Source: Candidatus Scatomonas merdavium (GTDB lineage Bacteria > Bacillota > Clostridia > Lachnospirales > Lachnospiraceae). From it: a stretch of DNA of 33,340 nt. Made by a program: the position numbers and the translations under genes. Within the stretch, counting starts at the first letter, position 1; the number at the start of each line of letters is the position of its first letter. Positions 14,029-19,720 of this stretch are shown here, piece by piece. The stretch covers positions 1 through 33,340 of the forward strand of contig DVJR01000135.1 in the NCBI GenBank assembly GCA_018716575.1, given 5' to 3'. The notes under the pieces were generated by a model that was given only the letters and a program-made list of their open reading frames with translations, was not told the origin of the DNA and ran no database searches.

Positions 14029-14769
14029 TCACTCATACCTCACAATCTCTTTTTTCAGCCGTTTCATGATTCTCTTCTCCAGTCTGGAGATATAAGACTG
14101 GGAGATGCCCAGCAGGTCGGCCACCTCTTTCTGGGTTTTTTCACGCCCCTCCGGCATATTGATGCCAAACCGCAGCTTCACGATGGTCTGCTCCCGGTCG
14201 GAGAGCTTTCCGATGGCTTTCCCCAGAAGGTTCTTTTCCACCTCATCCTCCAGCCCCCGGTAGATCACATCCTCGTCCGTGCCCAGAATATCGGACAGCA
14301 GCAGCTCGTTTCCGTCCCAGTCCACGTTCAGCGGCTCGTCGATGGACACCTCCATCCGCGTCTTGCTGTTCCGCCGCAGATACATGAGGATTTCATTTTC
14401 AATGCAGCGGGAAGCGTAGGTAGCCAGCTTGATCTTTTTCTCCGGGTTGAAGGTATTGATGGCTTTGATCAGGCCGATGGTGCCGATGGAGATCAGATCC
14501 TCCACCCCCACTCCCGTATTGTCAAATTTCTGAGCGATATAGACCACCAGCCGCAGGTTATGTTCGATCAGCTCTGATCTGGCTTCACTGTTTTCCGGAT
14601 CAGCCAGACCGGCTATGGCCTTCGCTTCCGCTTCCGGAGACAGCGGGGACGGCAGCACATCCGTCCCGCCGATATAGTACAGTTCCCCGGTTTTTCCAAA
14701 GACGACCGGAGTGAATCTTGGTAACATACGCAGCCGAAACCGGTTCGGCAGTGCAGCGTGCATAATCAT
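14029..14769 (-). CDS. sigE: RNA polymerase sporulation sigma factor SigE (pro-SigE)
   Basis: [22 protein letters not shown]...[45 protein letters not shown]; downstream of spoIIGA. Confidence 0.96.
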
Positions 14770-14781
14770 GATGCATTCCTC

Positions 14782-15639
14782 CTAACTGTTTATCAGATTT
14801 GGATTCAAAATCATCTGATAGCTCCGGGGAGAAGAACTACGCTCTCTGTCGATGGCGATCACCGGTCGGGTGACAACCCTGCTCGTATTTCCATTTTCCA
14901 GATACAGACAGTCCAAAATCACAGCCGGAAGGCAGCCCTCCCGGCATCCGACGCTCCGGAACGGAATATAATGGGGATGGATTCCGGCTAGAAGCTCCGG
15001 CCGTTCCCCTTTGCGGCATCCGCAGAATGCCTCCAGTTCCTTCTGCAGTTCCAGGGAAAATAATTCTTTTATCAGAGAATAGCTGATTACGGAAACCGGC
15101 TTGCGGCAAGTGGCGTCCCACAGTCCGTTTCCCGTATCGTAAAGTCCTTTTACCTCTTTACAGACCCCGCTCTGGCACAGCACCACCTTCCAGATTCTGG
15201 AATGGTGTTCCTGCAGAAGCCCGTACAGCCACAGCAGAAATGTGGTCAGCCCGTAAGCCGCCGCGCCCCAGAGCACGGCTCCTTTCAGGACTTCCGTTCC
15301 CGCAAAGCGGCGCAGAAACCGCCATACAGCGCTCAGAAGCGCCGCCGACAGATACAGGCAGAAAAGGCCCTGTAAAAAACGCTTTTTATCTTTGATTTTG
15401 CAGCCAAACCTTACCATTAATGCAGTAACAGCCACAGAAACCAGTACGGTATTCAGAAGGGGATATTTTCGGAAAAAGATTACGCCCAGGCAGGCCAGGC
15501 CCGCGCCGGCCGCGGCGGCCGCCAGACACCTGAAATGAGTGGCAGAGCATTTCAGAAGCCTGACCGAGAGCCGCAGCAGGAAATAATCCATCAGCAGATT
15601 TTCCAGGAAGAACACATCGATGTAAAGTTCATAGCGCAT
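14782..15639 (-). CDS. spoIIGA: Sigma-E processing peptidase SpoIIGA
   Basis: MRYELYIDVFFLENLLMDYFLLRLS N-terminus, PVSVISYSLIKELF, IPFRSVG; adjacent to sigE; AGGGGG SD 6 nt upstream of ATG. Confidence 0.93.
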   Translation of the reverse strand: MRYELYIDVFFLENLLMDYFLLRLSVRLLKCSATHFRCLAAAAAGAGLACLGVIFFRKYPLLNTVLVSVAVTALMVRFGCKIKDKKRFLQGLFCLYLSAALLSAVWRFLRRFAGTEVLKGAVLWGAAAYGLTTFLLWLYGLLQEHHSRIWKVVLCQSGVCKEVKGLYDTGNGLWDATCRKPVSVISYSLIKELFSLELQKELEAFCGCRKGERPELLAGIHPHYIPFRSVGCREGCLPAVILDCLYLENGNTSRVVTRPVIAIDRERSSSPRSYQMILNPNLINS

Positions 15640-15640
15640 G

Positions 15641-15710
15641 AAATACCCCCTGTATCCTGTGAACACTTACTGGAATAAGCAAGTTTCATTATAGGTTACA
15701 GGGGGTATTT
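15641..15710. promoter_or_regulatory. Inverted repeat pairing promoter spacer with spoIIGA SD
   Basis: aaataccccctgtatcct (15641-15658) / aggttacagggggtattt (15693-15710), 17/18 complementary. Confidence 0.8.
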
Positions 15711-15753
15711 ATTTTGTCAAAACCCGTGTGTCGAAAGAAAGAGAGTTTCGACA
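15688..15753 (-). promoter_or_regulatory. spoIIG-type Spo0A-dependent promoter (TTGACA-N21-TATAAT) with 0A boxes
   Basis: Minus -35 TTGACA 15720-15715, -10 TATAAT 15693-15688; 0A-box TGTCGAA at 15729-15735 (+) and 15747-15753 (-), plus TGTCAAA 15715-15721 (+). Confidence 0.75.
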
Positions 15754-15797: not shown

Positions 15798-16553
15798 TCA
15801 CAGCAGCTCCAGCATCCGCCGCAGTTCTGCCGCCGGAAGCTGGCCCGGAGCCGAAGCGGCGCCAGCCGTTCCGAAGGTCAGGGCAGAACCGGTCAGCCGC
15901 CCGCTGACCCGGGAGACCGCGCCCAGCCGCCCCATGGACATGGTGATCAGGGGCCGTTCCGTCCGGCCGTCCATCTCCGCCGTCACCTCCAGCAGCGCCA
16001 GCACATCGCCGGGGCAGGAGGGCATCACCGCCAGCTTCAGAATGTCCGCGCCGGTCCGCTCCAGCTCCTCCAGCACGGAAAGCATCTCCGCCCGATCCGG
16101 CGTCCGGCTGAAGAAATGGCAGGAGGCAGCCACAGGCTTTCCGGCTTTCTGAACAGCCGCCACAAGGCTTTCGGCGTCCAGGCCGTCCATGCACCCCTCC
16201 ACGTCGATCATGTCCGTTTCCGGCCTCTCCGCCGCCCACAGATTCAGCTCCCGGTAGGCTTCTGTCGAAATCGCCCGGTTTCCGCCTTCCGCCGCGCTAC
16301 GGAAGGTGAAAAGGATCGGAATCTGTCCGCAGATGTCGGATACGGCGGTCAAAACTTTTTCCGCAGCCTTCCGCTCTCCTGTTTTTTCGTAAAAATCCGC
16401 ACGCCATTCCAGCAGATCCGGCTTCTCCGCCGCCGCGGCGCGGGCCTGCTCCAGGATTTCCCGCTCCGTCACGCCCGTCACCGGAATGCAGATTTTCGGA
16501 ACGCCGTCGCCCAGCGCCGTCTGTTTTAATACAACTGTCTTTTTATTATTCAT
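15798..16553 (-). CDS. aroD: Type I 3-dehydroquinate dehydratase
   Basis: PKICIPVTGVTEREILEQ...DLLEWRADFYE...IPILFTFRSAAEGG...PVAASCHFF...DILKLAVMPSCPGD; start MNNKKTV at 16553. Confidence 0.95.
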   Translation of the reverse strand: MNNKKTVVLKQTALGDGVPKICIPVTGVTEREILEQARAAAAEKPDLLEWRADFYEKTGERKAAEKVLTAVSDICGQIPILFTFRSAAEGGNRAISTEAYRELNLWAAERPETDMIDVEGCMDGLDAESLVAAVQKAGKPVAASCHFFSRTPDRAEMLSVLEELERTGADILKLAVMPSCPGDVLALLEVTAEMDGRTERPLITMSMGRLGAVSRVSGRLTGSALTFGTAGAASAPGQLPAAELRRMLELL

Positions 16554-16654
16554 TTCATACCTCTTTCGTCCTTTTCCGGGCTTCCGCTCCGCTCCCGCAC
16601 AGAAAGCCGCCGCCTTTGCCCTGATACCAGGAAATCGTCCATTGCATTTCAATC

Positions 16655-17709: not shown

Positions 17710-18375
17710 ATGGGAACATTTGCATCTGATACATCCGGAAGGACGGCGGCGGACTGGGGCAAGGCTCTTCTGATTCTGCTGGCCGGACTAACTATCGCTC
17801 ATCTGGGAGTCACACTGTTCCTGCAGGCCAACATGGGAACAGATACATTTACCGTTCTGATTCAGGGACTCTCTCTCTGTACAGGACTTACCGTTGGCAC
17901 GGTCCATGTAATCGTTCTGTGTCTGCTGATGGTCGTCATGCTGCTGACTACCAAAGGTTACGTCAAGCCCGGAACCGTTGTCTGCGCTTTCTGCGGAGGC
18001 CCTATCATTGATTTTTTTACCTGGCTTCTGCGGGATCTGATCAACAGCGGCTCGCCTCTGGCAGTCCGGATCGTCAGCATGGTAGCCGGCTGCATCATTC
18101 TGGCCCTGGGTATGTCCGTCGTCATCAACAGCAATGCCGGCACCGGCCCCAATGATCTGATCGCTCTGATCCTCTCAGACAAAATCCCGCGCATCCAGTT
18201 CCGCTGGATACGGATTCTCTGCGATCTCTTCTTCGTAGTCGCAGGATTCTTCCTGGGCGGCACTGTCGGCGCCGGTACAATCGTAGCCGTCTGCCTTACA
18301 GGGCCTCTGGTACAGTTCTGGCTGCCTCTCTCAGCCCGCCCTGTCCGGGCGCTTCTCCGCAGACCGGAAGAATAA
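17710..18375 (+). CDS. YczE/YyaS/YitT family membrane protein
   Basis: Multi-TM; ANMGTDTFTVLIQGLS, GMSVVINSNAGTGPNDLIALIL. Confidence 0.75.
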   Translation: MGTFASDTSGRTAADWGKALLILLAGLTIAHLGVTLFLQANMGTDTFTVLIQGLSLCTGLTVGTVHVIVLCLLMVVMLLTTKGYVKPGTVVCAFCGGPIIDFFTWLLRDLINSGSPLAVRIVSMVAGCIILALGMSVVINSNAGTGPNDLIALILSDKIPRIQFRWIRILCDLFFVVAGFFLGGTVGAGTIVAVCLTGPLVQFWLPLSARPVRALLRRPEE

Positions 18376-18411: not shown

Positions 18412-18530
18412 ATGGCTGTCTCACAAAAGCCGCTTTGAAACACAAGCAGCCGTCAGATACAGAAGAATCCAGAACATTCTTCTGTATCTGACGGCACGCA
18501 TCACTTTCAGCGGCTTTTTGAAACAGCCAC
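18412..18530. repeat. MITE-like palindromic element, copy B (~118 bp)
   Basis: TIRs atatggctgtctcacaaaagccgctttgaaa / tttcagcggctttttgaaacagccacat around a perfect 19-bp hairpin (18450-18468/18476-18494). Confidence 0.7.
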
Positions 18531-18556: not shown

Positions 18557-19720
18557 TTATTTTCTCTTCAGGAAATCCGGAATCTGGATGTCCTTCTTCG
18601 GCACATTGCTGGTGATCGGCGCAGAAGACCTCGGCGCGGTGAAATTCGGCGCTGCCTGCTGCTGCGGCATCTGGAAGGTGGGCATCTTCACGCCTGCGTT
18701 GGTGAAAGCACTCTTCCGGGTAGCTTCCGCCGCCTTCTTCGCATCGGCTACGCTGGCCTGACGCGCGGTGGCATCGTCCAGTCCGGTGGCAATAACGGTG
18801 ATCCGCGCCGTATCCGGAACGGAATCGTCGTACATGGCGCCAAAGATAATGTTGGCGTCCTCGCCTGCCAGGTTCTGCACATAGCTGGCCGCATCGTTGG
18901 CATCCATCAGGCTGATGTCGCCGGAGATGTTGATGATCACGTGGCTTGCGCCCTCGATAGTGGTCTCCAGCAGCGGGCTGGATACAGCCTGCTGTACGGC
19001 CTCCAGAGCCTTGTCGTCGCCCTTGGCCTCTCCGATGCCAATATGGGCGATGCCCTTGTCGGTCATGACGGTCTGCACGTCGGCGAAATCCAGGTTGATC
19101 AGAGCCGGCAGGTTAATCAGGTCCGTAATGCCCTGCACCGCCTGCTGCAGCACTTCGTCCGCCTTCTTCAGAGCCTCCGGCATGGTGGTTCTGCGGTCCA
19201 CGATCTCCAGCAGCTTGTCATTCGGAATGACAATCAGCGTATCTACGTTCTGTTTCAGCTTCTCAATTCCCATAAGCGCATTGCTCATACGGGTCTTTGC
19301 TTCAAATCGGAAGGGCTTCGTCACAACACCGACGGTCAGGATCCCCAGCTCCTTGGCCAGTCCGGCCACTACAGGGGCCGCACCGGTTCCGGTTCCGCCG
19401 CCCATACCGCAGGTCACGAATACCATATCGGCGCCTTCCATGAGCTGCTTCAGCTCTTCGACGCTCTCCTCGGCGGCTTTCTCCCCTACCTCGGGCTTCG
19501 CTCCCGCTCCAAGCCCTTTCGTAATCTTCTCTCCTATCTGAAGGACTGTCGGCGCCTTGCAGAGCGTCAGCGCCTGTTTATCCGTATTCACACCGACGAA
19601 TTCCACTCCGCCGATGGATTCTTCCACCATTCTGTTTACTGCATTGTTCCCGGCTCCCCCGACGCCAATGACGATGATCTTCGCAGATGATTCTGCTTCG
19701 TTTGTCATAATCTCTAACAA
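18557..19720 (-). CDS. ftsZ: Cell division protein FtsZ
   Basis: [29 protein letters not shown] tubulin signature; C-terminal peptide [10 protein letters not shown]. Confidence 0.99.

Follow-up and report, generated by a model that had tools for sequence, protein, structure and literature searches.

In the mobile elements Tn10 and IS50, RNA from outside promoters folds and thereby hides the transposase start. In phage T4, the long early transcripts of the lysozyme gene e, and also of soc and I-TevI, bury the Shine-Dalgarno sequence (SD) in a helix; the late promoter of gene e lies within the 5' arm of this helix, and the late RNA, which lacks the arm, is translated, with an effect of ~100-fold (PMC3014915). 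For the sporulation gene sigG (spoIIIG) of Bacillus subtilis, the passage of PMC5942855 that cites Masuda 1988 and Sun 1991 describes a hairpin of 20+ bp, which was proposed to block translation of read-through RNA from the spoIIG operon and, according to the same passage, cannot form in RNA from sigG's own promoter. The principle itself is already established by T4 gene e and has been proposed for B. subtilis sigG. The new points here are that the candidate device would guard spoIIGA itself, that its 5' arm sits within a Spo0A-type promoter, between the -35 and the -10, and that it and terminators replace one another across a bacterial family.

We analysed a stretch of 33,340 nucleotides from Candidatus Scatomonas merdavium (Lachnospiraceae), hereafter the window, from a genome akin to DVOO01000011 and DVKB01000032 (Candidatus Scatomonas). 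The features of the spoIIGA locus are as follows, in the direction of transcription.

15798-16652, minus strand: aroD, type I 3-dehydroquinate dehydratase (PF01487, E 1.9e-65)
15747-15753, minus strand: TGTCGAA, a match to the Spo0A box core, read from the sequence
15729-15735, plus strand: second 0A box, oriented oppositely (minus-strand sequence TTCGACA), read from the sequence
15715-15720, minus strand: -35 TTGACA, from an exact match to TTGACAAA-N19-TATAAT, one of two in the genome
15694-15714, minus strand: promoter spacer of 21 nt holding arm 1, read from the sequence, its length kept in relatives
15693-15710, minus strand: arm 1 of the inverted repeat (AAATACCCCCTGTAACCT), from repeat comparison and covariation
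15688-15693, minus strand: -10 TATAAT, from the promoter pattern match
15665-15684, minus strand: inner stem-loop ACTTGCTTATTCCAGTAAGT, from the read-through fold, kept in many relatives
15646-15651, minus strand: SD AGGGGG of spoIIGA, read from the sequence, inside arm 2
15641-15658, minus strand: arm 2 of the inverted repeat (AGGATACAGGGGGTATTT), which includes the SD, from repeat comparison
15639-15637, minus strand: spoIIGA start codon ATG
14782-15639, minus strand: spoIIGA, sigma-E processing peptidase (PF03419, E 1.6e-56)
14029-14769, minus strand: sigE (NF006158, E 5.9e-117), directly 3' of spoIIGA in the same operon

SpoIIGA also matches TIGR02854 with an E of 4.9e-31, which is under that model's cut-off. 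A gap of 158 nt separates aroD from spoIIGA, both on the minus strand, and our own terminator rule found no terminator in the window between the aroD stop codon and the spoIIGA -35; aroD, the sense upstream gene, is where read-through into spoIIGA would likely originate. The spoIIG promoter of B. subtilis is activated by Spo0A, depends on sigma-A and has a long spacer. The window promoter resembles it in the 21 nt between TTGACA and TATAAT and in the upstream 0A boxes; a spacer of roughly 21-22 nt together with 0A boxes 5' of the -35 makes it, by its sequence elements, a promoter of the spoIIG/Spo0A type. Because the spacer is 21 nt long, a promoter scan with the standard 16-18 nt spacers misses it. 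The core motif of the 0A box is TGTCGAA, and in Clostridioides difficile the DNA-binding domain of Spo0A binds DNA upstream of spoIIGA (PMC3485338). From the position of the -10, we infer that the spoIIGA transcript starts at ~15681.

The initial annotation had described the TTGACA and TATAAT elements, two nearly complementary arms at 15710-15693 and 15658-15641, an AGGGGG SD within arm 2 just ahead of the ATG at 15639, and read-through from the direction of aroD. All of these were recovered at the positions given, with aroD 5' of spoIIGA on the same strand, and to them we add the length of the spacer and the U-tract that follows the stem in most relatives. Its placement of arm 1 between the -35 and -10 stands for most of the arm, which lies mainly in the spacer, but not for the last base, which is the first T of the -10.

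The arms of the repeat are 18 nt each, 94% complementary and separated by 34 nt, and as in T4 gene e the 3' arm covers the SD. Only two other places in the window have a repeat with 18-nt arms, no more than one mismatch and 3-80 nt between the arms, and 60 local shuffles gave no 18-nt repeat of such quality. A perfect 18-nt inverted repeat at 18448-18493, located between a convergent gene ending at 18375 (plus strand) and ftsZ (18557-19720, minus strand), is probably a bidirectional terminator; a further 18-nt repeat with one mismatch lies at 1259-1313.

The read-through strand from 15720 to 15620 folds at -34.8 kcal/mol compared with -17.2 ± 2.8 in shuffles (z -6.3), while the leader from 15681 has no unusual structure (z +0.5). 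Because the inner stem-loop fills the middle, the read-through RNA is predicted to fold into a single, continuous long rod with a small loop at the tip. Assuming a native start 7 nt past the -10, the predicted opening of the window SD is 0.00 for read-through and 0.40 for the native leader, i.e., the SD is predicted to be fully hidden in the former and partly open in the latter. The medians for the repeat loci are similar (0.00 versus 0.44), whereas loci without a repeat have little contrast (0.23 versus 0.34). The inner stem-loop is conserved among the repeat loci; loci without a repeat often bear another leader stem-loop, around ACCAAATCGATTTAGTA.

We collected the spoIIGA upstream regions of Lachnospiraceae, which gave 95 loci, 91 of them with a recognisable promoter and nearly all of these with the 21-nt spacer. 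The energy of pairing between the spacer and the SD region is bimodal across the 91 loci: 28 are at -16.7 or below, including 27 at -20.8 or below, and the others are weaker. The cut at -16.6 is our own choice and was placed to retain L003, a congener of the window with a decayed repeat. When arms were swapped among all 91 unselected loci, a locus's own arm paired at -14.5 kcal/mol compared with -10.45 ± 0.34 for permuted arms. When 26 repeat loci were aligned with MAFFT on sequence alone, 11 of the 16 pairs had changes on both sides, as expected if compensatory changes keep a helix of the T4 gene e type, and double-change cells numbered 40 compared with 14.8 ± 2.8 after shuffling and at most 19 in slid-register controls. 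The arms differ widely in sequence among genera while the pairing is retained; the covariation is strongest at pairs outside the SD (columns 22-27), and most repeat loci have the same SD core, GGGGG. Mismatches in the arms comprise 33 G-U and 8 A-C on the sense strand; outside the SD columns the bias is weak (19 G-U versus 6 A-C; shuffles, 31 versus 22), and we take this lean as a weak sign that the pairing molecule is the sense-strand RNA.

A covariance model built from the repeat and run over 397 genomes of the family added three clear spoIIGA repeat loci (L201, L212 and L215), each with a sense aroD upstream and no terminator; L216 lies just outside the cut (-16.4), and its upstream ORF is antisense by our caller. 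At 30 loci from other families of the order, the promoter was present and the repeat absent, and none of 20 additional spoIIGA loci of more remote kinship added a repeat.

For each locus, we took the nearest upstream gene and searched for an intrinsic terminator, called by our own rule, between its stop codon and the -35. Among the 83 loci with a sense upstream gene, none of the 26 with a repeat had a terminator that ends ahead of the -35, and a terminator was present in 55 of the 57 without a repeat (Fisher 1.6e-19, kinship ignored). Hairpins formed by 0A boxes and reaching the -35 were excluded as terminators only after they had been seen; counting these dyads, 4 of the 26 repeat loci have a terminator, and the table becomes 4/22 and 55/2 (5e-14). 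With aroD upstream, 22 loci had a repeat and no terminator, and five had a terminator and no repeat. A repeat without a terminator is also found downstream of ftsZ (L015), a UDP-glucose epimerase-like gene (L068) and amylase-like genes (L021 and L022), the latter two names being our reading of the translations. Because the repeat is missing from the five aroD loci that have a terminator and present at these four loci, the pattern does not merely reflect aroD versus ftsZ. By eye, the exceptional locus L031 carries a large-looped repeat that resembles a terminator; our calls gave neither device at L057 or, within the extra sample, at L309.

On a tree of SigE and SpoIIGA, the repeat changes at least seven times. 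All five independent pairs that sit on well-supported branches show repeat and terminator switching together; the sign test p of 0.0625 is the best attainable from five pairs, and the events are few. L002 and (weakly) L003 retain the repeat without a sense upstream gene. The two congeners of the window have a divergent upstream gene and a weaker repeat (-24.0 and -16.7), which is in line with a relaxed need, while two cases prove nothing. The 20 more distant loci mostly have ftsZ upstream, and our script called terminators in 12; by eye, L307 and L317 have ordinary terminators, L313 a doubtful one and L309 none, and L303 and L308 are ambiguous. In L311 and L321, a terminator is built inside the promoter, at most 120 nt 5' of spoIIGA; its loop holds the -35, and its U-tract extends into the -10.

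The repeat, its covariation, the promoter layout and the exchange with terminators are direct observations. Altogether, we consider it quite likely that the repeat spans the spoIIGA promoter as an insulator against read-through. Points against this reading are the small number of independent switches, a terminator rule of our own making (with the 0A-box dyads as a borderline case), the loci with neither device (L057 and L309), the repeat at L002 and L003 and the U-tract of the relatives. According to this model, in which the start site, the read-through and the translational effect are inferred, polymerase arriving from aroD would transcribe both arms, the RNA would fold into a long hairpin with the SD in the stem, and no SpoIIGA would be made. 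Because ribosomes translating aroD stop at its stop codon, 77 nt ahead of the spoIIGA -35, they could not melt the arms. In many relatives, the U-tract past the stem probably halts the polymerase as well. Transcripts from the Spo0A-type promoter would begin past arm 1, could not form the hairpin and would be translated; SpoIIGA, the protease that activates pro-sigma-E, would thus be made only once Spo0A turns the promoter on. The initial annotation had proposed such insulation and named the read-through versus native fold and the conservation and covariation of the arms among its tests; the outcome it had set as refuting, arms that are not conserved or do not covary, did not occur, and the folding contrast, the covariation, the swap test and the replacement of upstream terminators by the repeat all support this reading.

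The explanation that competes best is that the hairpin mainly terminates transcription, i.e., with its 5' arm in the spacer and a U-tract between the SD and the start codon, it would end only transcripts begun upstream. We regard this as a serious possibility that falls somewhat short of being probable. The four nucleotides ahead of the start codon contain 3.5 T in repeat loci and 0.74 in others, and 45 of these 99 T lie outside the duplex, so that pairing alone does not explain the U-tract. By the d'Aubenton-Carafa score, 24 of the 28 repeat loci are positive (median +18, compared with +34 for conventional terminators), a T-tract also accompanies such a repeat in three spoIIE promoters, and L311 and L321 have terminators built round the -35. 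Against termination, the window copy, with the tail TATTTCATG / TTTCATGCG, scores -2.0, just below the threshold for an intrinsic terminator, its two congeners score -17 and -34, and arm 2 always lies on the SD, a placement that termination by itself would not call for. Based on these low scores, masking of the SD is the likelier action in the window, and termination or both in the relatives, in which the U-tract suggests that masking may not be the main step. Because both would insulate, the comparative evidence fits masking and termination alike.

The rule seen at spoIIGA does not carry over to spoIIE, since most scored spoIIE loci have neither a repeat nor a terminator, and a strong spacer-SD repeat is present in only 3 of 34. 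With the covariance model, we found spacer-SD pairing and a T-tract before the start codon 5' of spoIIE in L218 (G307:C2:2845039-2845111), L221 (G111:C16) and L222 (G344:C35), at -23 to -27 kcal/mol. The spoIIE gene of the window's own genome (L189 1500-1600, G000:C4) has a promoter with a 21-nt spacer, and ACTCCC immediately 3' of the -10 pairs with GGGGAGT in the SD region; relatives have similar short pairings (z about -2.8 in the swap test).

Two further explanations are very improbable. The repeat is palindromic and overlaps the promoter, and might act as DNA, as the operator of a dimeric protein or as a promoter cruciform; however, arm sequences that vary while pairing is kept misfit a single protein, the G-U lean of the sense strand, weak as it is, points to RNA, and the exchange with upstream terminators is not predicted. 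We therefore reject the operator and the cruciform. We give equally little credence to the arms tuning the native message from a true start upstream of arm 1: TTGACA-21-TATAAT is kept in nearly all loci, with or without the repeat, and such a start would leave the SD permanently hidden. That a G-rich SD merely happens to pair with a C-rich spacer, as the constant GGGGG core might suggest, can be dismissed almost entirely, and chance pairing is rejected, given the covariation outside the SD, the swap test on the 91 unselected loci and the shuffles without such a repeat.

Returning to the insulator reading, the locus resembles T4 gene e in that the SD would be buried in read-through RNA and an internal promoter would escape; it differs in that T4 offers a phage gene with a late promoter and an experimental demonstration, whereas the spoIIGA device is a prediction from sequence. 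Like Tn10 and IS50, it would hide a gene start in read-through RNA, but those are mobile elements whose hairpin stems from the repeat ends. As far as the cited passage describes sigG, both are sporulation genes with a proposed read-through hairpin that would not form in own-promoter RNA; however, sigG would be shielded from spoIIGA-sigE read-through and spoIIGA from vegetative genes, and here arm 1 lies within a Spo0A-type spacer. We claim no homology of the two. We know of no such hairpin at the B. subtilis spoIIG promoter, and a search of open-licence papers turned up no description of such a device for spoIIGA.

The design would amount to a portable insulator, in which one DNA segment serves as promoter and read-through block, and it makes the exchange of two regulatory devices traceable across one family. 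More tentatively, and as a generalisation we lean against more than for, Spo0A-type promoters with 21-nt spacers may be a scaffold on which one straddling hairpin both terminates and masks the SD, having arisen at spoIIGA several times and likewise at spoIIE, and changing places freely with terminators when a different gene comes to lie upstream. Because sporulation is hard to reverse, growing cells could pay a high price for stray SpoIIGA. Our comparison suggests that lasting selection keeps spoIIGA closed to upstream transcription, with closure provided by terminators in most Lachnospiraceae and, where a terminator is absent, by the promoter-spanning hairpin.
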